Positions 10,317 to 51,594 of a stretch of 64,000 nucleotides of DNA are shown here, piece after piece. The notes below the pieces were generated by a model. The model was not told the DNA's origin. It saw only the letters and a list, made by a program, of their open reading frames with translations, and made no database searches. The DNA is from Symbiobacterium thermophilum IAM 14863 (GTDB lineage Bacteria; Bacillota; Sulfobacillia; Symbiobacteriales; Symbiobacteriaceae), in assembly GCF_000009905.1 (NCBI RefSeq), contig NC_006177.1, positions 248,001 through 312,000 on the forward strand, given 5' to 3'. Each line of letters starts with the position of its first letter. Within the stretch, counting starts at the first letter, position 1. The position numbers and the translations under genes are program-made.

Positions 10317-12161
10317 TCAAACGAGCACCACCTTGTAGTGCCGGAGCCAGGCCTCGAGCTGGATGAGCCAGGCGAAGTACTGGGGGCCGCTCATCAGCTG
10401 GCCGAACCAGGGCAGGTCCGTGGCCTCGTGGTCCTGCCGCGCCAGGGCCCGCACCCGGTCGGCCCGGACGATCTTGTGCAGCCGGCAGGCGGGGTCGTCC
10501 AGCAGGGCCAGGACCCGGTCCCGCACGGCGCGGAAGTATTCCGGGTGGTGGGTCTTCGGGAACGGGCTCTTGCGCCGGGTCCGCACCGCTTCGGGCAGCA
10601 CCCCCCGCAGCGCTTCCCGGAGGATGCCCTTCTCCCGCCCTCCGTAGGTCTTCAGGCGCCAGGGGATGTTCCACACGTACTCGACCAGGAGGTGGTCGCA
10701 GAAGGGGACGCGCGCCTCCAGCCCGACCGCCATGGACATGCGGTCGTTGCGGTCCAGGAGCGTGGCCATAAACCAGGCCAAATTGAGGTAGAAGAGTTCC
10801 CGGATGCGGGCCTCCTCCGGCTCCTCCCCCGGCAGCCGGGGCACGCGGGCTACGGTGTTGCTGTACCGCTGGGCCACGTAGTCCTCGGCCCGGATCGGCC
10901 CCGTGACGCCGGGCTGCAGCAGGGCCGTGCGGGCCTCCAGCGAGCGGATCCAGGGGAAGGTCCGGCCGGTCTCCGGGCCGGGTCGGTGGAACCACGGGTA
11001 ACCGCCGAACACCTCGTCCGCGCACTCGCCGGAGAGCACCACGGTGGCCCCCTTCTTGATCTCCCGGCAGAACAGGAAAAGCGCGGCGTCGACGTCGGCC
11101 ATGCCCGGCAGGTCCCGGATGAGCGCCGCCTTCTCCAGCGCGTCCACCAGCTGCGGTGTATCGATGACGACCTCGTGGTGCACCGTGCCTAGGCTCTCGG
11201 CCATCGTTCCCGCGTAGGCGCTGTCGGGGTCGGGCTGGAAGGCGTGGGCGCGGAAGTGCCGGTCGTTTTCCGCGTAGTCGATGGACCAGGTGTGCAGGGG
11301 CCCCCGCCCTTGGGCCCGGAAGGCCTCGGCGGCGAAGGCGGTGATCGCGCTGGAGTCGAGCCCGCCGGAGAGCAGGGTGGCCACCGGCACGTCGGCCACC
11401 AGCTGCCGGCGAACCGCCTCCCGCAGCAGCTCCCGCACCCGCTCGGCCGTCTCCGCCGGGCCGTCGGTGTGGGGCCTGCTTTCCAACTGCCAGTACGGCT
11501 GCGTCCGCACGCCCGCGCGGTCGAAGAGGAGCCAGTGGCCGGGCAGCACCTCCCGGACGCCCCGGAACACGCCGTGGCCCGGGGTGCGGGACGGTCCCAG
11601 GTAGAGCACCTCGGCCAGCCCCTCTGCGTCCACCTCCGGCTGCACCAGCGGGTGGGCCAGCAGCGCCTTCAGCTCGGAGCCGAACAGGATCGCGCTTCCC
11701 ATCGTCTTATAAAAGAGAGGTTTCACGCCAAAGCGGTCGCGGGCCAGGAAGAGCTGTTGCCCGGCCTCGTCCCACACCGCGAACGCGTAGATGCCGTTCA
11801 GACGGCGGGTGCACTCCGGCCCCCACTCCATGTACGCGACGAGCAGGACCTCGGTGTCCGACTGCGTCGAGAAAGCATGACCGCGGGCGGTGAGCTCCTC
11901 TTTCAGCTCCTGCGTGTTGTAGAGTTGCCCGTTGTACACAAGGACATAGGTTCGGTCACCGCGGCTGCGGACCATGGGCTGGGCGCCGCCGACCAGGTCG
12001 ACCACCGCCAGACGCCGGTGGCCGAAGGCGCAGTGGCCGGAGCACCAGATGCCCCCGGCGTCCGGCCCCCGATCGGCCAGCGGCGCAATCATCGTTTCCA
12101 GTACCGGGCCTTCCCGGGAAAGGTCCCTCTTCCAGTCGGCCCAACCGGCTATGCCACACAT
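10317..12161 (-). CDS. asnB: Asparagine synthetase, glutamine-hydrolysing
   Basis: A 614-residue enzyme that amidates aspartate using glutamine and ATP. The start at 12161 gives MCGIAGW with catalytic Cys2; GGAGGG lies 8 nt upstream. A longer reading from 12197 would bury that Cys and is rejected. The class II glutaminase domain (about residues 1-200) is followed by the synthetase domain with the PP-loop SGGLDSS and the LSGECADEVFGGYPW motif. It is the first gene of a minus-strand nitrogen block with gltB and amtB, though a strong hairpin and a separate gltB promoter divide it from gltB. A second, altered AsnB-like gene lies at 37091. Confidence 0.95.
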   Translation of the reverse strand: MCGIAGWADWKRDLSREGPVLETMIAPLADRGPDAGGIWCSGHCAFGHRRLAVVDLVGGAQPMVRSRGDRTYVLVYNGQLYNTQELKEELTARGHAFSTQSDTEVLLVAYMEWGPECTRRLNGIYAFAVWDEAGQQLFLARDRFGVKPLFYKTMGSAILFGSELKALLAHPLVQPEVDAEGLAEVLYLGPSRTPGHGVFRGVREVLPGHWLLFDRAGVRTQPYWQLESRPHTDGPAETAERVRELLREAVRRQLVADVPVATLLSGGLDSSAITAFAAEAFRAQGRGPLHTWSIDYAENDRHFRAHAFQPDPDSAYAGTMAESLGTVHHEVVIDTPQLVDALEKAALIRDLPGMADVDAALFLFCREIKKGATVVLSGECADEVFGGYPWFHRPGPETGRTFPWIRSLEARTALLQPGVTGPIRAEDYVAQRYSNTVARVPRLPGEEPEEARIRELFYLNLAWFMATLLDRNDRMSMAVGLEARVPFCDHLLVEYVWNIPWRLKTYGGREKGILREALRGVLPEAVRTRRKSPFPKTHHPEYFRAVRDRVLALLDDPACRLHKIVRADRVRALARQDHEATDLPWFGQLMSGPQYFAWLIQLEAWLRHYKVVLV

Positions 12162-30271: not shown

Positions 30272-30389
30272 CTCTTATCCAGAGTAGGCTGAGGGACTGG
30301 CCCGATGACGCCACGGCAACCGGCACGTCTCCCCAGGCGTGCAGCGGTGCCAATTCCTGGGGAGGGCTCCGCCCTCCCGAAGATGAGAG
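30272..30389 (+). promoter_or_regulatory. SAM-I (S-box) riboswitch aptamer
   Basis: P1 pairs CTCTTATC (30272-30279) with GATGAGAG (30382-30389). The conserved core GAGGGACTGGCCCGATGA and GGCAACC is present. By family knowledge S-adenosylmethionine binding promotes termination, so metNIQ is expressed when SAM is low. Confidence 0.95.
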
Positions 30390-30411
30390 GCAGCCGGAAG
30401 TCGTTCATTCT

Positions 30412-30440
30412 GTGCGCCTCTTTGTTGGGGCGCACTTTTC
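30412..30440 (+). terminator. S-box expression-platform terminator
   Basis: GTGCGCC and GGCGCAC form a 7-bp stem followed by TTTTC, 27 nt upstream of metN. Confidence 0.88.
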
Positions 30441-30466
30441 TATTGCCGAAACGGGGGTAAGTCCTG

Positions 30467-31465
30467 GTGATCGAGCTCAAGGGCCTCACCAAGGTGTTCA
30501 GACAAAACGGGCAGGAGATCGTGGCCCTGAGCGACGTCAACCTGCACGTGCCGCGGGGCCAGATCTTCGGCATCCTCGGCCAGAGCGGCGCCGGCAAGTC
30601 CACCCTCATCCGCTGCGTCAACCTGCTGGAACGCCCCACCGCGGGTGAGGTCTGGGTGGACGGTCGGGAGATCACCCGCCTGTCCCCCGGGGAACTGAGG
30701 GCGGCCCGGCGGGAGATGGGCATGATCTTCCAGCAGTTCAACCTGTTCGACTCCCGCACCGTCTTCGGCAACGTCGCCTATCCGCTGGAGGTGGCCGGCT
30801 GGCCCCGGGCGCGCATCCGGGAGCGGGTGGAGGAGCTGCTTGCCCTGGTGGGGCTCGCGGACAAGGCCGGGGCGTATCCGAACCAGCTATCGGGCGGCCA
30901 GAAGCAGCGGGTCGGCATCGCCCGGGCGCTGGCGCCGGGGCCCAAACTCCTCCTCTCCGACGAGGCCACGTCGGCGCTGGACCCCGATACCACCCGGTCC
31001 GTGCTGGCGCTGCTGCGGGAGATCAACCGGCGGCTCGGGCTGACCATCCTGCTGATCACCCATCAGATGGAGGTCGTCAAGCAGGTCTGCGACTCGGTGG
31101 CCATCCTGGAGGAAGGCAAGGTGGTCGAGCAAGGCGGTGTGCTGGAGCTGATCGGCCGGCCCGGCTCGCGGCTGCGGGAGCTGTTCTACGAATCCACGGA
31201 GGAGGCTGCCCACAGGATCCACCCCGACGGGGTGCGTGTGTTGCTCTTCTTCGTCGGCGCCTCCGCCGACCGGCCGCTGATCAGCGAGACGGTCCGCCGG
31301 TTCCGGGTGGACGCCAACATCCTGCAGGGGGCGGTCGAGCGGATCGCCGGGGCGACCGTGGGCCGGTTGCTCGTGGAGTTCACCGGCCTGCCCGAGGACA
31401 TTCAGGACGCCCTGCGCTTCCTGGAGGAGCAGGGGGCCTCGCCGGAGGTGATACCAAATGGCTGA
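30467..31465 (+). CDS. metN: Methionine ABC transporter ATPase
   Basis: A 332-residue ATPase for D/L-methionine import. Walker A is GQSGAGKST, the signature LSGGQKQRV, Walker B LLLSDEATSALDP. The C-terminal roughly 80 residues form the NIL ligand-binding domain of MetN, which gives feedback inhibition by methionine. The GTG start follows GGGGGTAAG. metI begins 8 nt before its end. The S-box upstream confirms the substrate class. Confidence 0.95.
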   Translation: MIELKGLTKVFRQNGQEIVALSDVNLHVPRGQIFGILGQSGAGKSTLIRCVNLLERPTAGEVWVDGREITRLSPGELRAARREMGMIFQQFNLFDSRTVFGNVAYPLEVAGWPRARIRERVEELLALVGLADKAGAYPNQLSGGQKQRVGIARALAPGPKLLLSDEATSALDPDTTRSVLALLREINRRLGLTILLITHQMEVVKQVCDSVAILEEGKVVEQGGVLELIGRPGSRLRELFYESTEEAAHRIHPDGVRVLLFFVGASADRPLISETVRRFRVDANILQGAVERIAGATVGRLLVEFTGLPEDIQDALRFLEEQGASPEVIPNG

Positions 31466-32153
31466 GCCGGGAACGGCGCTGAAGGCCGCCTGGGCGGCGT
31501 TTTACGCTGACCTGGGGCGGATGATGCTGGAGGCCACCAAGGAGACCCTCTACATGGTGGGCGTCGCCGGTCTGTTCACGGTCCTGCTGGGTCTGCCCCT
31601 GGGCGTGCTGCTGGTGATCACCGCCCGGGACGGTCTGTGGGAGAAGCCGGCGCTGAACCGCATCCTCGGCGTGCTGGTCAACATCGGCCGCTCGACGCCG
31701 TTCGTGATCCTGATGGTCGCGGTCAGCCCGCTCACCCGGGCGATCGTCGGCAAGTCCATCGGCACCACGGCGGCCATCGTCCCGCTGGTGGTCGCCGCCG
31801 TTCCCTTCATGGGGCGGGTGGTGGAGCAGGCGCTCCACGAGGTGGGCCCCGGCAAGATCGAGGCCGCACTGGCCATGGGCTCCTCCAACTGGCAGGTGGT
31901 GACCAAAGTGCTCCTGGCCGAGGCCCGGCCCTCGCTGGTGCGGGGCACGGCCCTGATGCTGGTCAACCTCGTCGGCTACTCGGCCATGGCCGGCGCCATC
32001 GGCGGCGGCGGTCTGGGCGACGTCGCCGTCAAGTGGGGATACAACCGGTTCCAGATGGACGTGATGTACGTCAGCCTGGTGATCCTTGTCATCATGGTGC
32101 AGGTCGTGCAATGGATCGGCGACAGCCTGGCCAACAGGTTTTCGCATAAATAG
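31458..32153 (+). CDS. metI: Methionine ABC transporter permease
   Basis: A 231-residue permease with five membrane segments. The coupling loop ALHEVGPGKIEAALAMGSSN and the NLVGYSAMAGAIGGGGLGDVA segment are diagnostic of MetI. It overlaps metN by 8 nt and partners with it. Confidence 0.95.
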   Translation: MAEPGTALKAAWAAFYADLGRMMLEATKETLYMVGVAGLFTVLLGLPLGVLLVITARDGLWEKPALNRILGVLVNIGRSTPFVILMVAVSPLTRAIVGKSIGTTAAIVPLVVAAVPFMGRVVEQALHEVGPGKIEAALAMGSSNWQVVTKVLLAEARPSLVRGTALMLVNLVGYSAMAGAIGGGGLGDVAVKWGYNRFQMDVMYVSLVILVIMVQVVQWIGDSLANRFSHK

Positions 32154-32185
32154 ATAGTGTCCTGAATAAGCGGGGGGTTGAGCGT

Positions 32186-33076
32186 ATGAAGCGTATCGCA
32201 GGTATCGCACTGGTTTCCATCCTGGCACTGGGCGTGTTGGCCGGCTGCGGCGGCGCAAAGGGTTCCCCTGCGCAGGGGGAGCAGCCTGCGCAGCAGGCCC
32301 CGGCGCAGGACCAGGGGCAGGTGCAGGGGCCGGAGCAGACCCAGGAGCCGGTCACGCTGACGGTCGGCGCCACGGTCACGCCCCACTCCGAGATCCTCGA
32401 GTTTATCAAGGACAAAGCCGAGGCTGAGGGCATCAAGCTGGACATTGTGGTCTTCACCGACTACGTCCAGCCGAACCTGGCCCTGGCCGACGGCAGCCTG
32501 GACGCGAACTACTTCCAGCACGTGCCGTACCTGGAGCAGTTCTCCGCGGATCGCGGCCTTGACCTGGTCTCGGTCGGCCCCGTCCACCTGGAGCCCCTGG
32601 GCCTCTACGCCCTGGAGCTGACCAGCCTGGACCAGCTGCCGGACGGGGCTACGGTCTCCATCCCCGATGATCCCACCAACGCGGGCCGCGCCCTGAAGCT
32701 CCTGGCGGATCACGGGCTGATCGAGCTGAAGGAAGGGGTTGGCGTGAAGGCGACGCCCAACGACATCGTGGCGAACCCCAAGAGCCTGAAGATCGAAATG
32801 CTGCAGGCGGAGTTCCTGCCGCGCAGCCTCCAGGACGTGGATGCCGCGGTGATCAACACGAACTACTACCTGGACGCGGCGAAGAACCTGGGCGTGAAGG
32901 CGAACGTTCTGGCCCGGGAGTCGGCGGAGAACAACCCCTACGCAAACATCGTCGCCGTGCGCCGGGGCGACGAGAACCGGCCGGAGATCAAGAAGCTGAT
33001 GGAGCTCCTGCAGTCCGAGGCCGTCGCCAGGTTCATCAACGAAAACTACGACGGCGCGGTGGTTCCGGCGTTCTAA
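32186..33076 (+). CDS. metQ: Methionine-binding lipoprotein
   Basis: A 296-residue extracytoplasmic receptor. The lipobox LAGC (Cys21) is followed by a Gln/Pro-rich linker (about residues 22-55) before VTLTVGATVTPHSEIL. DANYFQHVPYLEQF and INTNYYLDAA match MetQ binding-site regions. It ends the metNIQ operon. Confidence 0.94.
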   Translation: MKRIAGIALVSILALGVLAGCGGAKGSPAQGEQPAQQAPAQDQGQVQGPEQTQEPVTLTVGATVTPHSEILEFIKDKAEAEGIKLDIVVFTDYVQPNLALADGSLDANYFQHVPYLEQFSADRGLDLVSVGPVHLEPLGLYALELTSLDQLPDGATVSIPDDPTNAGRALKLLADHGLIELKEGVGVKATPNDIVANPKSLKIEMLQAEFLPRSLQDVDAAVINTNYYLDAAKNLGVKANVLARESAENNPYANIVAVRRGDENRPEIKKLMELLQSEAVARFINENYDGAVVPAF

Positions 33077-33081
33077 TGGAA

Positions 33082-33112
33082 GTGGGGAGGGGGGCGGAGC
33101 CCCCCTCCCCAC
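33082..33112 (+). terminator. Hairpin after metQ
   Basis: A perfect 14-bp stem GTGGGGAGGGGGGC and its complement with a 3-nt loop, 5 nt past the stop. There is no T-run. Its 3' arm leads directly into the tandem repeat array and shares its CCTCCCCACCCCC motif. Confidence 0.65.
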
Positions 33113-33896
33113 CCCCACCCCCTGGCAATCGGCAGGCGGTGCCACGGCGGCTGGCCGTACATGCCGGCCAGCCGCCGTGAAGCGGGGGAGGGGGCAGGCG
33201 TGGGATGCTCAGGGAGCAAGGGTGTCCCCCCTCCCCACCCCCACCCCCTGGCAATCGGCAGGCGGTGCCACGGCGGCTGGCCGTACATGCCGGCCAGCCG
33301 CCGTGAAGCGGGGGAGGGGGCAGGCGTGGGATGCTCAGGGAGCAAGGGTGTCCCCCCTCCCCACCCCCACCCCCTGGCAATCGACAGGCGGTGCCACGGC
33401 GGCTGGCCGTACATGCCGGCCAGCCGCCGTGAAGCGGGGGAGGGGGCAGGCGTGGGATGCTCAGGGAGCAAGGGTGTCCCCCCTCCCCACCCCCACCCCC
33501 TGGCAATCGGCAGGCGGTGCCACGGCGGCTGGCCGTACATGCCGGCCAGCCGCCGTGAAGCGGGGGAGGGGGCAGGCGTGGGATGCTCAGGGAGCAAGGG
33601 TGTCCCCCCTCCCCACCCCCACCCCCTGGCAATCGGCAGGCGGTGCCACGGCGGCTGGCCGTACATGCCGGCCAGCCGCCGTGAAGCGGGGGAGGGGGCA
33701 GGCGTGGGATGCTCAGGGAGCAAGGGTGTCCCCCCTCCCCACCCCCACCCCCTGGCAATCGACAGGCGGTGCCACGGCGGCTGGCCGTACATGCCGGCCA
33801 GCCGCCGTGAAGCGGGGGAGGGGGCAGGCGTGGGATGCTCAGGGAGCAAGGGTGTCCCCCCTCCGGCTGGCAATCGGCAGGCAGTGCCATGAACAT
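33100..33896. repeat. 126-bp tandem repeat array
   Basis: Six full units start at 33122, 33248, 33374, 33500, 33626 and 33752, with a partial seventh at 33878. Each unit contains a 15-bp perfect inverted repeat around a 7-nt loop (33143-33179 in the first). Units 3 and 6 carry CGACAGG where the others have CGGCAGG, so a three-unit block of 378 bp was itself duplicated. The period is a multiple of 3, which keeps all frames open and creates false proteins on both strands. Confidence 0.95.
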
Positions 33897-33953
33897 GGCG
33901 GCGGCCATGCAGGGGGGTAGTCGTGCAGGGGAGTGGTTGGAAAATTGTCGATC

Positions 33954-33983
33954 TTGACATAGTGCCAGACCGCCTGGTAAAAT
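33954..33983 (+). promoter_or_regulatory. Promoter of the c-di-AMP riboswitch operon
   Basis: TTGACA, 18 bp and TAAAAT; the aptamer begins about 28 nt after the expected start. Confidence 0.85.
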
Positions 33984-34017
33984 TAACTCGCTTGTGGTAA
34001 CGGAATAGTCTCTGGAC

Positions 34018-34177
34018 CCGCCTGATCGCTGAATCTCCGCGTATGCGGGGAACGGGGGAACCACTTTCCTGGGGCGAATCGCACCGAGGCTCCGACGGGT
34101 GTCGGAGGGAGGATGCGTAGGGGTACGCTTCGGCGCCCCGAGTCCGTCAGCTAACCTCGTAAGCGTGGCTGAGGTGG
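34018..34177 (+). promoter_or_regulatory. ydaO-type (c-di-AMP) riboswitch aptamer
   Basis: Outer pairing CCGCCT (34018-34023) with AGGTGG (34172-34177) and CGCT with AGCG encloses the ydaO landmarks: CGGGGGAACCA, GGGGCGAATC, and CCGTCAGCTAACCTCGTAAGCG. By family knowledge c-di-AMP binding turns the downstream genes off, and targets often concern osmolytes, ions or cell wall. Recognition is by conserved core only. Confidence 0.85.
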
Positions 34178-34254
34178 TGGGCCCTTGCCATTGATGTCGA
34201 TATACCATGTGCTAAGGGGTCACCAGACCTTAAGCGTTTTCATGCCTTCAGGCG

Positions 34255-34340: not shown

Positions 34341-35435
34341 GTGCTGCGATACTGCGTGATCGGAGCCGGCCACGGCGGGCTCGCCATGGCCGGTCACCTG
34401 GGCGTGATGGGGTTCCCCGTGTCGCTCTGGGCCCGCAATCCCCAGACCCTGGAGCCGATTGAGGCCGTCGGAGGCGTGTTCCTGGAGGGCGAGGTCGAGG
34501 GGTTCGGTCCCGTGCAGGTCGCGTACAGCCTGGAGGCAGCCCTGGAGGGGGCGGATGCGGTGCTGGTCGTGCTGCCCGCCTCGGCCCACCGCGAAATCGC
34601 GATGCGGTGCGCGCCGTACCTGAGGGACGGGCAGCGGATCCTGCTGCTCCCCGGCCGCACCGCGGGAGCCATCGAGTTCCGGCATTCGCTGCGGGAGGCC
34701 GGGTGCACGGCCGACGTCATCGTCGGCGAGGCGCAGACGTTTCTGTATGCCAGTCGCAAGACGGGGCCGTTTCAGGCCCGCATCCACGGTATCAAGCGCC
34801 AGGTGCCGGCGGCCGCGCTGCCGGCGTCGCGCACCGGCGAGCTGCTGGAGGCGATCAAGCCCGCCTTTCCCCAGTTCATGCCGGCCCGCTGGGTCTGGAA
34901 GACCTCACTGGACAACGTGGGGGCCATCTTCCATCCGGGCGTCGCGCTCCTGAATGCCGGGCGTATCGAGTCCACCGGCGGGGCCTTCCGCCATTACGTG
35001 GACGGCATCACGCCGTCGGTGGCGGCGCTCCTGGAGCAGCTGGACCGGGAGCGGGTGGCGGTTGCCCGGGCGTTGGGGGTTGGGGCGCTGACGGCCCGGG
35101 AATGGCTCGCGGAGGCCTACGGGGTGGAGCGACCCACCCTGTACGAGGCGATCCAGGCCACCCGGGCGTACGCCGACGTCGGGGCGCCCGCACAGCTTCA
35201 CCATCGGTACATCTGGGAGGACGTTCCGACCGGCCTGGTGCCCATCGCCTCGCTGGGTGCCGCCTGCGGGGTGTCGACGCCGGTCGCCGACGCGCTGATC
35301 CAGATCGCCAACGGGATCTTCGGCGTCGATTTCCGGGCGATGGGCCGCACTGTGGAACGGCTGGGCATGGCGGGATGGGGGCCCGCGCGGATCACGCAGT
35401 ACGCCTTGGAAGGGGATGTGGTGGATGTTGCCTAA
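34341..35435 (+). CDS. Opine (octopine/nopaline) dehydrogenase-family enzyme
   Basis: A 364-residue NAD(P)-dependent enzyme. The Rossmann motif GAGHGG (G8, G10, G13) opens the protein, and NVGAIFHPGVALLNAGRIE with DGITPSVAALLEQLDRERVAVARALG is the signature of the octopine dehydrogenase C-terminal domain. Such enzymes join an amino acid and a 2-keto acid reductively, or run the reverse. The GTG at 34341 follows GAGGAGGGAGGAG; the longer reading overlaps the riboswitch platform. It is the first gene behind the c-di-AMP switch and overlaps the next by 11 nt. The substrates are not predictable. Confidence 0.85.
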   Translation: MLRYCVIGAGHGGLAMAGHLGVMGFPVSLWARNPQTLEPIEAVGGVFLEGEVEGFGPVQVAYSLEAALEGADAVLVVLPASAHREIAMRCAPYLRDGQRILLLPGRTAGAIEFRHSLREAGCTADVIVGEAQTFLYASRKTGPFQARIHGIKRQVPAAALPASRTGELLEAIKPAFPQFMPARWVWKTSLDNVGAIFHPGVALLNAGRIESTGGAFRHYVDGITPSVAALLEQLDRERVAVARALGVGALTAREWLAEAYGVERPTLYEAIQATRAYADVGAPAQLHHRYIWEDVPTGLVPIASLGAACGVSTPVADALIQIANGIFGVDFRAMGRTVERLGMAGWGPARITQYALEGDVVDVA

Positions 35436-37074
35436 CCGTCGTGTGATCGGGGGGGCGATCGGCGACGACGTCCACGTGGGCGGCGTCGTTCGCTTCCTGC
35501 AGATGGCGGAACAGCTGGGATATGAGGTGCGCTGCCTTGGGCCGGCCGTCTCGGTGGAGCGGCTGCTGGAAGAGGTGGCGGCGTACGATCCCGAGATCGT
35601 CGCCGTGGGCTACCGGCTCACGCCGGAGTCCGGCCGGGCGGTGCTGGCCCACCTGGCCCGTGCGGCGCGGGAGCAGGGGCAGGCCGGCCGCCGCTGGGTG
35701 CTGGGCGCGACGGATCCGGTGGCGGAGCACGGCCGGGCCCTGGGCTTCTTCGAGGCCGTGTTCGGCGGTTCGGCAGACTGGCAGGACGTCGTGGACTACC
35801 TGCGGGGGGCGCCGACGCGCAAGGCGGGTGGTATCCCGCCCCAGACGGTGGTGGAGCGCATCCTGTGGAAGCGCCCCTTCCCGCTGCTGCGCCATCACTT
35901 CGGGCAGCCCACCGTCGAGGCGACCGTGGAAGGGATCCGGCGGATCAGCGAGGCCGGGGTGCTGGATGTGATCAGCCTCGGCACCGACCAGAACGCGCAG
36001 GAGCACTTCTTCCGGCCCGAGGAGATGGACCCCCGGGAGCACGGAGCCGGCGGGGTGCCGGTCCGGACGCCGGACGATCTACGGGCGCTGTATGCCGCCT
36101 CCCGCACCGGGAACTACCCGCTGATGCGCTGCTACAGCGGCACCCGCGACCAGCTCGCCTGGGCCGAGATGCTCCACGAGACCATCCACAACGCCTGGGC
36201 GGCGGTGCCCCTGTTCTGGTACAGCCAGCTGGACGGGCGCTCGCAGCGGACACTTCTGGAGTCGATCCCGGAGGTACAGGCGGTGTTCCGCTGGCACGCG
36301 GAGCGGGGCATACCGGTGGAGTCCAACGAGAGCCACCACTGGTCGCTGCGGGACGCCCCGGACGTGGTGGCGGTGGCTGCCGCCTACATCGCGGCCTACA
36401 ACGCCAAGCAGGCGGGCGTCACCGACTATGTCCAGCAACTGATGTGGAACAACCCGCCTCTCACCTCCCCGGCGATGGACCTGGCCAAGATGCTGGCCAA
36501 GCTGGAGCTGGTGGAGTCGCTGGCGGGTCCCAACTTCCGGGTCTGGCGGGAGTGCCGCACCGGACTCACGTCGATGCCGGCGGGATTCGACCGGGCCAAG
36601 GGCCACCTGGCGGCGTCGACGTTCCTGCAGATGGCGGTGAAGCCCGACATTGTGCACATCGTGGGCCACTCCGAGTACCACCATGCCGCTACGGCGGAGG
36701 ACGTGATCGAGGGCTGCCATGTGGTCAACGGTGCCATCCAGCTGGCCCTGCAGGGGCTGCCCGACATGACCCGGGACGAGGCGGTTCAGGCCCGGAAGGC
36801 CGAGCTGGTGCAGGAGGCGAAGCTGCTGCTGGAGGCGATTGCCGGTCTGGCGCCTGCCGGCGTGGAAGATCCGCTCACCCACGCGCCGACGCTGGCTGCC
36901 GCGGTGCGCACCGGCCTGCTCGATGCCCCGCACCTGGTGGGTAACCCGGCCGCGCGGGGTGAGGTGGCGGTGCGGTTCACGGACGGCGCCTGCCGCGCCG
37001 TGGACCGGCGCTCGGGCCGGGTTCTGACGGAAGCGGAGCGGATCGCCCTGCTGCTCGCAGAAGAGATCGTGTAA
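35425..37074 (+). CDS. Cobalamin-binding, mutase-like protein
   Basis: A 549-residue protein. The N-terminal roughly 130 residues form a B12-binding domain with the D-x-H-x-x-G motif (D15, H17, G20) that takes the lower axial ligand position of cobalamin. The rest looks like a TIM-barrel catalytic part reminiscent of the glutamate mutase E subunit, with many conserved-looking His and Asp (GHSEYHH, NESHHW). This second assignment is by general resemblance only. The ATG at 35425 follows AGGGG. Fusion of both parts in one chain differs from two-subunit glutamate mutase. It lies in a three-gene operon with opine-dehydrogenase-like and AsnB-like genes. Confidence 0.7.
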   Translation: MLPNRRVIGGAIGDDVHVGGVVRFLQMAEQLGYEVRCLGPAVSVERLLEEVAAYDPEIVAVGYRLTPESGRAVLAHLARAAREQGQAGRRWVLGATDPVAEHGRALGFFEAVFGGSADWQDVVDYLRGAPTRKAGGIPPQTVVERILWKRPFPLLRHHFGQPTVEATVEGIRRISEAGVLDVISLGTDQNAQEHFFRPEEMDPREHGAGGVPVRTPDDLRALYAASRTGNYPLMRCYSGTRDQLAWAEMLHETIHNAWAAVPLFWYSQLDGRSQRTLLESIPEVQAVFRWHAERGIPVESNESHHWSLRDAPDVVAVAAAYIAAYNAKQAGVTDYVQQLMWNNPPLTSPAMDLAKMLAKLELVESLAGPNFRVWRECRTGLTSMPAGFDRAKGHLAASTFLQMAVKPDIVHIVGHSEYHHAATAEDVIEGCHVVNGAIQLALQGLPDMTRDEAVQARKAELVQEAKLLLEAIAGLAPAGVEDPLTHAPTLAAAVRTGLLDAPHLVGNPAARGEVAVRFTDGACRAVDRRSGRVLTEAERIALLLAEEIV

Positions 37075-37090
37075 GGAGGAGGTCGCTGCA

Positions 37091-38611
37091 TTGAGTGGGA
37101 TCGCTGGGATCCTCGGCAAACCTGACAAGGCCCGCATCGTGAGGATGCTGGAACAACAGGCGCACCGGGGGCCCGACGGTCGCGGGATCTGGACGGCGAC
37201 GGCCGGTTTCGGCCTGGGGCATGTGCGCCTGGCCACCGTCGATGTTGCGGGCGGTGGCCAGCCGCTGTCCAACGAGGACGGCAGCCTCTGGCTGGCGATG
37301 ACCGGCGCCATCTATAACCATGGCGCCCTTCGGCGAGAGCTCGAGGGGCGCCATGCGTTCCGGACTCAGTCAGACGCCGAAGTGGTGGTGCACCTGTTTG
37401 AGGAGTATGGCCCCGCCTGCGTGGAGCGGCTGGACGGGATGTTCGCGATCGCCATCTGGGGCGAGGAGGTGGGCCTTTTCCTCGCCCGCGACCCGCTGGG
37501 CATCCAGCCGCTGTACTGGGGGGAGGACGAGGAGGGCAATGTCCTCTTCGCCTCCGAGATCAAGGCGCTGGTCGGGGAGACGCGCTTCGTACGCGAGTTT
37601 CCGCCCGGCCACCGCTGGCGCGCCGGCGAGCCCCTGGAGCCTTACGAGCGGCTGCCGGCGCACACCGGCGAACTGGCGGACCCGGACCAAATCGTCCTGG
37701 CCCTGGACCGCCTGCTCCACGCCGCTGTGCGCAAGCAGCTCGCGGCGGACGTGCCGGTGGGCTGCCTGCTGAGCGGCGGGCTCGACTCCAGCCTGGTCAC
37801 CGCCATCGCGCGGCAGCACGCGGAAGGCGAACTCCATACGTTTGCTGTGGGGTTGGAAGGCTCGGCGGACCTGGAGCAGGCGCGCATGGTGGCCGGGGAA
37901 TTGGGTACCATTCACCACGAGCGGGTGCTCACGGAAAAGGAGGTGACCGCCGTCCTGCCGCGGGTGGTCGACGCCCTGGAGTCGTGTGACCCGGCGCTCG
38001 TGCGCAGCGCGGTCGCGACCTACTATGTGGCGGAACTGGCCGCCGGGCACGTGAAGGTGGTGCTCTCGGGCGAGGGCGCCGACGAGCTCTTCGCCGGATA
38101 TGACTACCTGGCCGAGTTCGAGCGCGATGCGGGCGCACTGGGGGCCGAGCTGTACGAGATCACGGCGGCCATGCACAACTGCAACCTGCAGCGGGTCGAC
38201 CGCATGACCCAGGTCCACGGCGTGGAGGCGCGGATGCCGTTTGCCGACCAGGCCGTGGTGGACTTTGCGTTCCGCATACACCCCCGCCTGAAGCGCCGGG
38301 ACGGCGAGAGCAAGTGGATTCTGCGGCGGGTCGCGGAGCAGTATCTGCCGCCGGCCATCGTCTGGCGGGAGAAGCAGAAGTTCGCCATCGGTTCGGGGAT
38401 CGCACCGCTGCTGGAGCATTACGCGGCCAAGGCGGTGCCGGACGCGGCCTTCCGCCGCGCGCGAAGCCCGAAGGGCGTTCCCTTCGCGTCGAAGGAGGAG
38501 TTCCTTTACTGGAGCCTGTTCCGCGAGCGGTACGGCCGGGAGGACGTGCTGGCGCTCATGGGCCGGAGCCGCAGCCTGAACCAGGGCCAGCGGTGGGTCG
38601 GGGCGCTCTAG
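37091..38611 (+). CDS. Asparagine-synthetase-like enzyme with Ser in place of catalytic Cys2
   Basis: A 506-residue AsnB homologue. The N-terminus reads MSGIAG, whereas active class II glutaminases read MCGIAG; asnB at 12161 keeps the Cys. AAGGAGG lies 10 nt before the TTG start and no Cys precedes it in frame, so the loss is real unless a sequencing error occurred. The synthetase half is intact: PP-loop SGGLDSS at about residues 228-234 and LSGEGADELFAGYDY. It can probably still adenylate a carboxylate but not draw ammonia from glutamine. Free ammonia or an amine substrate, as in beta-lactam synthetase relatives, would fit. Third gene of the riboswitch operon. Confidence 0.85.
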   Translation: MSGIAGILGKPDKARIVRMLEQQAHRGPDGRGIWTATAGFGLGHVRLATVDVAGGGQPLSNEDGSLWLAMTGAIYNHGALRRELEGRHAFRTQSDAEVVVHLFEEYGPACVERLDGMFAIAIWGEEVGLFLARDPLGIQPLYWGEDEEGNVLFASEIKALVGETRFVREFPPGHRWRAGEPLEPYERLPAHTGELADPDQIVLALDRLLHAAVRKQLAADVPVGCLLSGGLDSSLVTAIARQHAEGELHTFAVGLEGSADLEQARMVAGELGTIHHERVLTEKEVTAVLPRVVDALESCDPALVRSAVATYYVAELAAGHVKVVLSGEGADELFAGYDYLAEFERDAGALGAELYEITAAMHNCNLQRVDRMTQVHGVEARMPFADQAVVDFAFRIHPRLKRRDGESKWILRRVAEQYLPPAIVWREKQKFAIGSGIAPLLEHYAAKAVPDAAFRRARSPKGVPFASKEEFLYWSLFRERYGREDVLALMGRSRSLNQGQRWVGAL

Positions 38612-38702: not shown

Positions 38703-39749
38703 GTGGCAGATACGTATGTCATCCCGGGGCTTGTGGTCATCCTGCTTCTGGTTCTGATCCTGCCGTTTGCCTTCAAGGCCATCGAACACCAGCTGGAGAT
38801 TTTCCTCTTCATCATGGGTGTTTCGGCCGCGCTGGTGAGCGGCATCATGGACCAGCACCTGATCATGAAGGCCTTGGAGGAGCCCATCATGATCACGGCG
38901 GCGGTCCTGATCGCCGGCATCCTGTTCAAGCTGTTTCAGACGAAGCTGCAGGCAGGCATCCGGGCGATCCTGAGGGTTGTGCCGTTCCCGGTGTTCGTGT
39001 TCCTGGTCGTCACCGTTCTCGGCCTGGTGTCCAGCGTCATCACCGCCATCATCGCCTCGCTGGTGCTGGTGGAGGTCGTCGGTGCCCTGCGGCTCGACCG
39101 GAAGACCGAGGTCAACTTGGTCATCCTGGCCTGTTTCAGCATCGGCCTGGGCGCGGCGTTGACCCCGCTGGGAGAGCCGCTGGCCACGATCGCGGTTTCG
39201 AAGATGGGCGGCGATTTCTGGTACTTGCTGCGAACGATCGGGGTCTACGTGGTGCCGACGGTGGTCGCACTGGGGCTCCTGGGCGCCCTCTTTCTGAAGG
39301 GCGGGCGGCCGGAAGCCGCGGCGCAGGCAGAAGGCCCCGGGCTGATCGAGCAGGAGGACGGCGAGTCCTTCAAGGACGTCATCGTGCGGGCGTTGAAGAT
39401 CTACCTCTTCGTGATGGCGCTGACGTTCCTGGGGGATGGCTTCAAGCCGTTGATCGACCGGTATGTGCTCGGATTGCCGAGCGCGGCCCTCTACTGGATC
39501 AACATGCTCTCGGCGGTGCTGGACAACGCCACGCTCACCGCCGCGGAACTGAGCCCGGCGATGGCGCCCGCACAGGTGAAAGCCGTCTTGATGGGCTTGC
39601 TCATCAGCGGCGGCATGCTGATTCCCGGCAACATCCCCAACATCGTGTCGGCCAGCAAGCTGAAGATCGGTTCGCGTGAGTGGGCCAGGACCGGTGTGCC
39701 CCTTGGGCTGGCCTTGATGGTGATCTTCTTCTTCATCGTCGTGCTGTAA
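38703..39749 (+). CDS. DUF1646-family membrane protein, putative cation transporter
   Basis: A 348-residue protein with about ten membrane segments. ITAIIASLVLVEVVGAL and GLGAALTPLGEPLATIAVSK, repeated in spirit near the C-terminus as SAVLDNATLTAAELSP and GGMLIPGNIPNIVSASKL, give the inverted-repeat pattern of ion transporter superfamily carriers. The family is usually annotated as a predicted cation transporter. The GTG follows GGTGAGGAGG. It lies downstream of the c-di-AMP operon but has its own promoter; a role in ion balance would suit that context. Confidence 0.75.
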   Translation: MADTYVIPGLVVILLLVLILPFAFKAIEHQLEIFLFIMGVSAALVSGIMDQHLIMKALEEPIMITAAVLIAGILFKLFQTKLQAGIRAILRVVPFPVFVFLVVTVLGLVSSVITAIIASLVLVEVVGALRLDRKTEVNLVILACFSIGLGAALTPLGEPLATIAVSKMGGDFWYLLRTIGVYVVPTVVALGLLGALFLKGGRPEAAAQAEGPGLIEQEDGESFKDVIVRALKIYLFVMALTFLGDGFKPLIDRYVLGLPSAALYWINMLSAVLDNATLTAAELSPAMAPAQVKAVLMGLLISGGMLIPGNIPNIVSASKLKIGSREWARTGVPLGLALMVIFFFIVVL

Positions 39750-40165: not shown

Positions 40166-44963
<4,798 letters not shown>

Positions 44964-45015
44964 TCGCTGACATGTGTGTTCACTGTGTGGTTTTGAGGGT
45001 AAGACCTCCAAGGTT

Positions 45016-45122
<107 letters not shown>

Positions 45123-45129
45123 ATCTATT

Positions 45130-45205
45130 GGACCGCTAGCTCAATTGGTAGAGCATCCGACTCTTAATCGGCAGGTTGTAGGTTCGAGTCCTACGCGGTC
45201 CACCA
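45130..45205 (+). tRNA. tRNA-Lys (CTT)
   Basis: Full cloverleaf with encoded CCA; acceptor GGACCGC/GCGGTCC and anticodon loop CTCTTAA. Confidence 0.95.
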
Positions 45206-45210
45206 CTGCC

Positions 45211-45286
45211 GGCCCCATCGTCTAGAGGTCTAGGACGGCGCCCTCTCACGGCGCAAACAGGGGTTCGAATCCCCTTGGGGTCACCA
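45211..45286 (+). tRNA. tRNA-Glu (CTC)
   Basis: Acceptor GGCCCCA/TGGGGTC, anticodon loop CTCTCAC, CCA encoded. Confidence 0.95.
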
Positions 45287-45311
45287 CTGCAACAACTGCA
45301 TAGGGCACCAT

Positions 45312-45388
45312 GGCGGCGTAGCTCAGCTGGTCAGAGCATGCGGTTCATACCCGCAGTGTCGCTGGTTCGAATCCAGCCGCCGCTACCA
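45312..45388 (+). tRNA. tRNA-Met (CAT), elongator type
   Basis: Anticodon loop TTCATAC. The first acceptor pair is G-U, and the anticodon stem lacks the three G-C pairs of the initiator. A lysidine-modified tRNA-Ile with CAT cannot be excluded. Confidence 0.85.
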
Positions 45389-45393
45389 CCGAT

Positions 45394-45469
45394 GGCCCGG
45401 TAGCTCAGTTGGTAGAGCACGCGACTGAAAATCGCGGTGTCGCCAGTTCGATTCTGGCCTGGGCCACCA
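45394..45469 (+). tRNA. tRNA-Phe (GAA)
   Basis: Anticodon loop CTGAAAA, CCA encoded, 76 nt. Confidence 0.95.
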
Positions 45470-45474
45470 CTGGC

Positions 45475-45559
45475 GGGGAGATACCCAAGTGGTCAAAGGG
45501 GGCTGACTGTAAATCAGTTGCGTAACGCTTCGGAGGTTCGAATCCTCCTCTCCCCACCA
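45475..45559 (+). tRNA. tRNA-Tyr (GTA)
   Basis: 85 nt with a long variable arm; acceptor GGGGAGA/TCTCCCC, anticodon GTA. Confidence 0.95.
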
Positions 45560-45565
45560 GATTCT

Positions 45566-45641
45566 GCGGGTTTAGCTCAGTTGGTAGAGCGCCACCTTGC
45601 CAAGGTGGAGGTCGCGAGTTCGAGTCTCGTAACCCGCTCCA
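45566..45641 (+). tRNA. tRNA-Gly (GCC)
   Basis: Acceptor GCGGGTT/AACCCGC, anticodon loop TTGCCAA. Confidence 0.95.
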
Positions 45642-45648
45642 GCGTTAT

Positions 45649-45724
<76 letters not shown>

Positions 45725-45755
45725 GAGGCGGTGTCGGTGGCCGCCGCAGCCAGAT

Positions 45756-45831
45756 GCGCGGTTAGCTCAGTTGGGAGAGCGCATGATTGACGTTCATGAG
45801 GTCAGAGGTTCGATCCCTCTACCGCGCACCA
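45756..45831 (+). tRNA. tRNA-Val (GAC)
   Basis: Acceptor GCGCGGT/ACCGCGC, anticodon GAC. Confidence 0.95.
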
Positions 45832-45850
45832 CCAGACAATGTTCATACGC

Positions 45851-45927
45851 GGAGGCGTGGTGTAGAGGCCTAACATGCGGCCCTGTCACGGCCGAGATCG
45901 CGGGTTCGAATCCCGTCGCCTCCGCCA
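45851..45927 (+). tRNA. tRNA-Asp (GTC)
   Basis: Acceptor GGAGGCG/CGCCTCC with discriminator G, as expected for Asp; anticodon GTC. Confidence 0.95.
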
Positions 45928-45932
45928 GATTT

Positions 45933-46023
45933 GCAGATGTGGCGGAATTGGCAGACGCGCACGGCTCAGGACCGTGTCGGGTAACCACTCCCGGTGGGAG
46001 TTCGAGTCTCCCCATCTGCACCA
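45933..46023 (+). tRNA. tRNA-Leu (CAG)
   Basis: 91 nt with a long variable arm; acceptor GCAGATG, anticodon CAG. Confidence 0.94.
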
Positions 46024-46072
46024 CGTCGCCTGGGCTCCGCGGTATGCGCGGCGGGGATTCCGGGTGGGTTCT

Positions 46073-46148
46073 GCTGATGTAGCTCAGGAGGTAGAGCACG
46101 TCCTTGGTAAGGACGAGGTCACCGGTTCGAGCCCGGTCATCAGCTCCA
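46073..46148 (+). tRNA. tRNA-Thr (GGT)
   Basis: Acceptor GCTGATG/CATCAGC, anticodon GGT. Confidence 0.95.
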
Positions 46149-46151
46149 GGC

Positions 46152-46228
46152 GCGAGGGTAGCTCAGTAGGCCAGAGCACTCGGCTGATAACCGAGAGGTC
46201 CCGGGTTCGAATCCCGGCCCTCGCACCA
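46152..46228 (+). tRNA. tRNA-Ile (GAT)
   Basis: Acceptor GCGAGGG/CCCTCGC, anticodon GAT. Confidence 0.95.
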
Positions 46229-46237
46229 GTTTCATAC

Positions 46238-46314
<77 letters not shown>

Positions 46315-46318
46315 ATCC

Positions 46319-46352
46319 AACTTCGGAAGCGGCTTCTGCCGCTTCCGAAGTT
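46319..46352 (+). terminator. Terminator of rrn operon 1 and its tRNA genes
   Basis: A perfect 14-bp stem AACTTCGGAAGCGG and its complement with a 6-nt loop, directly after the last tRNA. Confidence 0.8.
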
Positions 46353-46394
46353 GCCTGCCGGGAGGCAGGAGGAAGTGCCGGCAGCATCTGGGCG

Positions 46395-46423
46395 TTGACG
46401 TCGACCGGTGCGCCTGCTAGAAT
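46395..46423 (+). promoter_or_regulatory. rrn operon 2 promoter P1
   Basis: TTGACG, 17 bp, TAGAAT. Confidence 0.8.
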
Positions 46424-46489
46424 AACTCCTTGCCGCCCACCGGCGGCGCAGCTCACGGCGGAAACGGCTGGCTGGAACGAGTTGGCCTG

Positions 46490-46518
46490 TTGACACGAAG
46501 CCGGGAGATTGCTAAACT
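46490..46518 (+). promoter_or_regulatory. rrn operon 2 promoter P2
   Basis: TTGACA, 17 bp, TAAACT; shared rrn leader sequence begins about 6 nt later. Confidence 0.82.
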
Positions 46519-46624
46519 GGTGAAGCTGTCGCCTGACGGCAGCGAGATCTCGAACCTTGAAAACTGGACAGTGCAGAGAGGGAAGCCGAGCGAGCCGGTA
46601 TTCCAAAGGAGCCAACATCAAGCT

Positions 46625-51424
<4,800 letters not shown>

Positions 51425-51476
51425 TCGCTGACATGTGTGTTCACTGTGTGGTTTTGAGGGTAAGACCTCCAAGGTT

Positions 51477-51583
<107 letters not shown>

Positions 51584-51594
51584 ACTCATTTGGA

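Follow-up and report, generated by a model that had tools for sequence, protein, structure and literature searches.

Positions 37091-38611 of the window (the whole 64,000-nucleotide stretch of Symbiobacterium thermophilum DNA analysed here) encode a protein, here called ASN, that resembles the asparagine synthetase AsnB except that serine stands in place of the N-terminal catalytic cysteine. The locus raises the question of whether such an enzyme can still take nitrogen from glutamine and, if not, which nitrogen source and which acceptor it would use. The following features of the gene bear on the answer.

37091..38611, + strand: ASN, a putatively glutaminase-dead AsnB-like amide synthetase (ORF of 506 amino acids, TTG start)
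37075..37082, + strand: GGAGGAGG, Shine-Dalgarno sequence of ASN, 8 nt from the start
37094..37096, + strand: AGT, the Ser2 codon replacing the catalytic Cys codon
37301..37309, + strand: T71-G72-A73, replacing N74-G75-E76 (E. coli numbering) of the glutamine pocket (alignment to 1ct9 and 54 relatives)
37772..37792, + strand: SGGLDSS, the PP-loop of an intact synthetase site (alignment)

The ORF begins TTG-AGT-GGG-ATC-GCT-GGG (M-S-G-I-A-G); residues 1-30 contain no cysteine, and no alternative in-frame start further upstream would bring one in. Re-reading of this region upheld the earlier note as to both the MSGIAG start and the good ribosome-binding site preceding it. A second species (contig JAMNXV010000205.1, locus L005; also genome G002), in which the protein is 86% identical to ASN and lies in the same operon, has the same TTGAGTGGGATCGC start including TTG-AGT, and the serine is therefore real and not a sequencing slip. 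The identical start and ribosome-binding site there rule out a sequencing error or a wrongly chosen start, and the second-species sequence, together with the further pocket changes, rules out a strain mutation. The window genome is a single contig of 3,566,135 bp; its other full AsnB-family protein (10317-12161, − strand) keeps MCGIAG, as the earlier note had it, and PF00733 gives a weak third match at C1:1280699.

Near relatives differ at this position. The orthologue in G001 (same genus, 71-72% identity) keeps Cys2, as does that in G003 (same family, 63-65%), which also has a complete pocket; Ser2 is thus a derived change common to two species. Within the same order, G007 keeps the cysteine, and G005 and G006 start Met-Gly-Gly and have also lost Arg49. 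The earlier note had asked whether Ser2 is conserved in orthologues, and took retention of Cys2 to indicate a sequencing error or strain mutation: G002 shares the serine and G001 and G003 retain the cysteine, but the consequence drawn does not follow.

The glutaminase and synthetase halves of ASN

Aligned with E. coli AsnB (1ct9), ASN has Ser for Cys1, Thr for Asn74, and Ala for Glu76, and retains Arg49, Gly75, and Asp98. The glutamine-pocket network of AsnB comprises Arg48/49, Asn74, Gly75, Glu76, and Asp96/98 (PMC6748925, in excerpt). ASN thus lacks two of its contacts in addition to the nucleophile. A further change lies on the presumed route of ammonia: at the position of human Arg-142, described as the gate of the ammonia tunnel in an extract of PMC11615228, all 27 relatives with the N-terminal cysteine in the set described below have Lys or Arg, and ASN and its G002 counterpart have Gln. 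The equivalent of human Glu-414 is retained in ASN. This conserved interface Glu is Gln in the G001 protein, where Asn74 has become Asp; among the 27 Cys rows this protein is the sole one changed at N74 and the sole one without Glu at the Glu-414 position.

The PP-loop and other synthetase motifs, which the earlier note had called intact, proved so on alignment: the synthetase domain scored 257.6 bits against PF00733, and SGGLDS, E328, D331, E332, Y337, and K428 are all present. Between the window and G002, dN/dS was 0.10 in the glutaminase half and 0.14 in the synthetase half. ASN is still under selection; its dead half has not diverged more quickly than the live half, and so is likely to retain a part in shaping the route of ammonia or the fold. 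The predicted structure of ASN (mean pLDDT 60.3, with a low-confidence glutaminase half) was too poor to use.

Loss of the N-terminal cysteine in the subfamily

In 43 of 398 genomes of the phylum and 21 of 154 of the class, profile searches gave matches with E no higher than 1e-110. The aligned set of 55 rows consists of the subfamily matches fetched, a Leucobacter protein (L006), and the window's other AsnB (L001); matches in G048, G194, G199, G223, G236, G296, G319, G414, and G433 lie outside it, as does L108 of G111, whose frame is broken by TAG. Row starts were picked by eye among candidate starts, and for L129 and L136, which have no clear start, the position-2 letter depends on the alignment. 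L108 (G111:C2:2055029-2056303) is itself a Cys-type member of the subfamily with an open frame of 341 codons, and its in-frame TAG marks either a decayed gene or a codon read as a residue.

Cysteine is present in 27 of the 55 rows and absent from 28 (Ser in 18, Gly in 6, Ala in 3, and Tyr in 1). The pocket residues follow this division: N74, E76, R49, and D98 are each kept in 26-27 of the 27 Cys rows, and in 1, 5, 3, and 7, respectively, of the 28 non-Cys rows. Asp74 occurs in 23/28 non-Cys rows and in 1/27 Cys rows, requiring eight changes on the tree. All 28 non-Cys rows keep SGGLDS, E328, D331, E332, Y337, K408, R412, and K428.

A maximum-likelihood tree of the 55 rows, built on the synthetase columns, requires the Cys label to change six times. 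Well-supported branches force every one of these changes, and none of 500 shuffles gave a number as low as six. Taking Cys as ancestral, Cys2 has been lost at least six times: in the window and G002 (Ser), in G005 and G006 (Gly), in L111 (Ala), in L135 (Gly), in L107 (Tyr), and in a 21-row clade (mostly Ser). The long branches of L001 and L006 meet others in the tree, and the six events are independent of them. An independent-pairs test of Cys loss against change at N74 gave changes in the same direction for an average of 4.9 out of 6 pairs and in the opposite direction for none, with a median p of 0.06, there being too few pairs for significance; the window pair need not differ at N74 because its Cys-keeping sister, G001, already has Asp74. 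The earlier note's claim that glutaminase but not synthetase chemistry has been lost is well supported, as judged from the sequences, by three altered pocket residues, six losses of Cys2, and an unaltered synthetase core in 28/28 non-Cys rows.

As a control, 18 further AsnB-family proteins from these genomes were considered; 14 of the 17 with a readable N-terminus keep the cysteine, the exceptions being L165, L166, and L167. Cys loss is thus not confined to the ASN subfamily, and among other AsnB-family proteins it is the exception. Both AsnB-family proteins of G185 (L167 and L111) start Met-Ala-Gly, not Met-Cys-Gly, and L167 reads LDGEIYN where NGE is usual; that genome yielded no AsnA and no AsnRS. 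A search of the open-access PMC literature found no description of a natural Cys-less AsnB subfamily or of the operon described below.

In the NAD synthetase family, the glutaminase domain is either absent or present, whereas in the ASN subfamily it is kept but broken. NAD synthetases are a precedent in that a single family includes both glutamine- and ammonia-using forms (PMC3376133). The PurF' proteins of Crenarchaeota are likewise amidotransferase paralogues without the N-terminal Cys, for which ammonia use has been proposed, but they have another synthetase domain and product and, in the excerpt of PMC3261824, form one cluster as opposed to six or more separate losses.

The operon and its riboswitch

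ASN is preceded by two genes, here called ODH and MUT, and by an RNA leader.

33954..33983, + strand: sigma-70-like promoter (TTGACA, 18 nt, TAAAAT), a consensus match only (11/12 matches in a consensus scan)
34017..34180, + strand: c-di-AMP riboswitch aptamer (RF00379, ydaO/yuaA leader; full-length Infernal match of 83.6 bits, gathering score 38)
34341..35435, + strand: ODH, opine-type dehydrogenase (PF02317, 166 bits; presumed GTG start behind AGGAGGGAGGAG)
35416..37074, + strand: MUT, B12-dependent mutase-like protein with an N-terminal B12-binding domain and a MutE-like part (PF02310, 27.9 bits; PF06368, 20.3 bits; both just under the gathering cut-offs)
38703..39749, + strand: DUF1646 membrane protein, of a predicted Na+/H+ antiporter family (PF07854, 416.6 bits)

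ODH has the PF02317 helical domain and the NAD-binding domain of an opine dehydrogenase, and its best solved relative is N-(1-D-carboxylethyl)-L-norvaline dehydrogenase (1bg6, E 2.1e-79). MUT, in which H20 and G23 of a DxHxxG-like motif are conserved, has close homologues in 82 of the 398 phylum genomes. It was rejected as a plain glutamate (methylaspartate) mutase, its PF06368 score lying under the cut-off of 26.6 bits. When aligned with true MutE, only R66 of the arginine claw (which we take to be R66, R100, and R149) has a clear suggested equivalent, and because that profile alignment is weak, such equivalences are leads only; the predicted structure of MUT (mean pLDDT 36.4) was too poor to use.

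The order ODH-MUT-ASN was found in 13 loci (the window, L022, L023, L024, L027, L028, L030, L100, L101, L103, L106, L124, and L134), with DUF1646 following ASN in the window, L022, and L023. L104 has MUT-ASN only, and in L105 ODH-MUT and ASN are one gene apart. Genomes with the ASN subfamily carry MUT in 28 of 37 cases, and those lacking the subfamily in 54 of 361 (Fisher test, phylogeny ignored); the 37 exclude six genomes with an MCSIMGY-type AsnB, five of them read and the sixth (G199) assigned by score and length only. Most ASN proteins in this type of operon keep the cysteine, and ammonia use is therefore not required by the pathway. Two loci (L049 in G035 and L054 in G009) have ODH-MUT without ASN, beside two ORFs resembling acyl-CoA dehydratase activase-type proteins; no c-di-AMP riboswitch was found in those stretches.

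The riboswitch in the window ends ~160 nt before the ODH start; 0.1 matches as good as the promoter are expected in shuffles, and a simple scan revealed no terminator-like expression platform after the riboswitch. A c-di-AMP riboswitch lies directly upstream of all 11 ODH-MUT-ASN operons for which upstream sequence exists, L030 and L106 being uncounted because of a contig edge. In L105, ODH-MUT and ASN each have their own riboswitch; L104, which has no ODH, has none. Stand-alone ASN genes have one in 2 of the 26 loci scanned, L107 (Tyr2) and L117 (Ser2), with L006, L109, L110, L115, L121-L123, L125-L128, L131, L132, and L136 lying outside the scan. Across 61 genomes of relatives there were 131 riboswitch matches, and one lay within 3 kb upstream on the same strand of 26 of 48 MUT matches (24 of 41 MUT genomes), where uniform placement would give ~0.06. 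The window genome has two c-di-AMP riboswitches, the other preceding a same-strand ORF that, judged by eye, reads as a secreted, cell-wall-type protein. Control of ASN by an asparagine T-box was also considered and rejected: no T-box came out of the Rfam searches, which covered the window and 41 loci and turned up the c-di-AMP riboswitch instead.

Genes for potassium, osmolyte, and cell-wall functions are under the control of riboswitches of this class. Genes for osmoprotectants lie behind tandem Na+/c-di-AMP riboswitches, and members of the DUF1646 family are predicted to be Na+/H+ antiporters (both from the accessible part of PMC9337991). The targets of the riboswitch class and the antiporter prediction together lead us to read the operon as an osmotic-adaptation unit. 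The osmoprotectant genes ablA, dapB, and eam similarly concern amino-acid-derived solutes under the same class of RNA switch, but those systems use lysine or glutamate aminomutases or DapB, and a B12 mutase, an opine dehydrogenase, and AsnB are not named in that part of PMC9337991.

Several other elements lie nearby. A SAM riboswitch precedes MetNIQ-like transporter genes (30272-33076) just upstream of the operon; with their own riboswitch, these genes are likely unrelated to ODH-MUT-ASN and were set aside as a part of the pathway. Direct repeats of ~126 bp, with several reading frames open through them, form an array at 33073-33960, after the MetNIQ genes and before the c-di-AMP riboswitch, and a repeat of different look is found at the matching place in L005. 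Two rRNA operons with 13 tRNA genes as a block between them extend over 40167-51584.

Nitrogen source and acceptor

Two equivalog models, both named asparagine synthase and one of them glutamine-hydrolysing, score over their cut-offs on ASN (NCBIfam AsnB equivalog, 552.8 bits; cut-off, 499). Databases would consequently credit ASN with taking nitrogen from glutamine, in conflict with the evidence of its active site. Gene content offers another view. AsnA was present in 2 of the 28 genomes examined (G079 and G122, which are of no help to the ammonia argument). In seven genomes (G005, G026, G045, G160, G180, G236, and G316) AsnRS scores over its cut-off, AsnA is absent, and the non-Cys enzyme is the only AsnB-family protein; the G236 protein lies outside the 55 rows and is classed as non-Cys by analogy with L078 and L120, its close relatives under the same genus code (g99). 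There, the non-Cys enzyme must make asparagine from ammonia unless asparagine is imported or formed by tRNA-dependent amidation, and ammonia-driven amidation is the best reading, for ASN as for these proteins. G002 fits the same AsnRS/no-AsnA pattern in a genome that is 88% complete; G096 and G327, which lend the argument no weight either, have only the non-Cys enzyme, with no AsnRS over the cut-off.

The earlier note had suggested an ammonia- or amine-using enzyme such as a relative of beta-lactam synthetase. Ammonia stands as the best reading, but the kinship finds no support: ASN sides with AsnB. Its best phmmer match in the PDB is E. coli AsnB (1ct9, E 1.9e-88), far ahead of CarA (1q15, 5.5e-25) and beta-lactam synthetase (1jgt, 1.6e-24), and the lasso-cyclase model NF033535 gave 178.7 bits against a cut-off of 525. 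ASN shares with E. coli AsnB and human ASNS the two-domain architecture, the PP-loop, and the synthetase catalytic residues, and differs from them in its pocket (broken at C1, N74, and E76), in T322-T323 (which we take to be E. coli AsnB residue numbers) becoming A-L, and in its operon and riboswitch setting. The N-acetylglutaminylglutamine amidotransferase model TIGR03104, presumably an AsnB-type enzyme that amidates an osmolyte, scored 273.6 bits against a cut-off of 570.1; that amidotransferase keeps the cysteine.

Attack of a substrate amine on the adenylate, as in beta-lactam synthetases and lasso cyclases, would agree with the loss of glutaminase beside a kept synthetase, and the neighbouring genes could supply an amine-bearing opine; it is nevertheless very unlikely, given the distances just described and the fact that the neighbours are ODH, MUT, and DUF1646, with no RiPP or beta-lactam genes recognised beside ASN. 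Close relatives in the same operon have a complete glutaminase, which argues that ammonia is the nitrogen donor. Serine can act in other N-terminal-nucleophile hydrolases, and with that precedent and the retention of R49 and D98, Ser2 might still hydrolyse glutamine slowly. We consider this extremely improbable, as N74T and E76A take away oxyanion and glutamine contacts and other lineages have Gly, Ala, or Tyr for the cysteine. Moreover, Cys-to-Ser substitution in PurF and AsnB, and Cys-to-Ala in AsnB, abolishes glutamine use (PMC3261824, in excerpt, citing Boehlein 1994 for AsnB). That ASN is a non-catalytic paralogue, serving the operon as a regulatory or scaffold protein, would suit a protein with one half catalytically broken, but is most improbable for a gene under purifying selection whose synthetase residues are invariant in 28/28 non-Cys rows.

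A plain ammonia-dependent asparagine synthetase, i.e., an AsnB fold doing the job of AsnA with aspartate as acceptor and the operon contributing regulation, is a more serious alternative, though a somewhat unlikely one. The equivalog score, the seven genomes in which AsnRS is accompanied by no further asparagine synthetase, and the retention of the E. coli Arg325 position as R305 speak for it. On the other side, T322-T323 is replaced by A-L in ASN and by other pairs across the subfamily, ODH, MUT, and the riboswitch have no obvious link to asparagine supply, the window genome has another AsnB, and the seven genomes may import asparagine.

The account that we favour, and regard on balance as probable, is that ASN is an ammonium-using, glutaminase-off amide synthetase of the AsnB family in a riboswitch-led osmotic-adaptation operon. 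The c-di-AMP riboswitch would lead a transcript encoding ODH, MUT, ASN, and probably the Na+/H+-antiporter-like protein. ASN would adenylate a carboxylate with ATP, and in the window lineage the adenylate would be amidated by free ammonium from solution and not by glutamine-derived ammonia; as acceptor, aspartate is one candidate and an acidic amino acid supplied by ODH and MUT another. The product would be an amidated, amino-acid-derived compatible solute for osmotic stress. Of this account, the residues, the tree, the gene order, and the RNA are observed; the activity, the nitrogen source, and the physiological role are inferred. Against it are the cysteine kept by most ASN proteins of such operons, the Cys-type AsnB of the window genome, the R49, D98, and Glu-414 equivalents remaining in ASN, the rarity of the riboswitch at stand-alone ASN loci, the gene content of G096 and G327, and the negative terminator scan.

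More tentatively, as a possibility short of an even chance, ODH-MUT-ASN may constitute an undescribed compatible-solute pathway of Firmicutes, gated by c-di-AMP, in which the B12 mutase would reshape an acidic amino acid, the opine-type dehydrogenase would modify it, and the AsnB-type synthetase would neutralise a carboxylate as the amide; in at least six lineages the synthetase would have left glutamine for ammonium while keeping the dead domain, mostly with Asp74. The riboswitch-led operon gives a concrete, testable starting point in the search for a new osmolyte whose synthesis involves a B12 enzyme. The repeated loss of the cysteine, usually with Asn74 changed to Asp, provides natural replicates of how amidotransferases turn ammonia-dependent and of why the dead domain stays.
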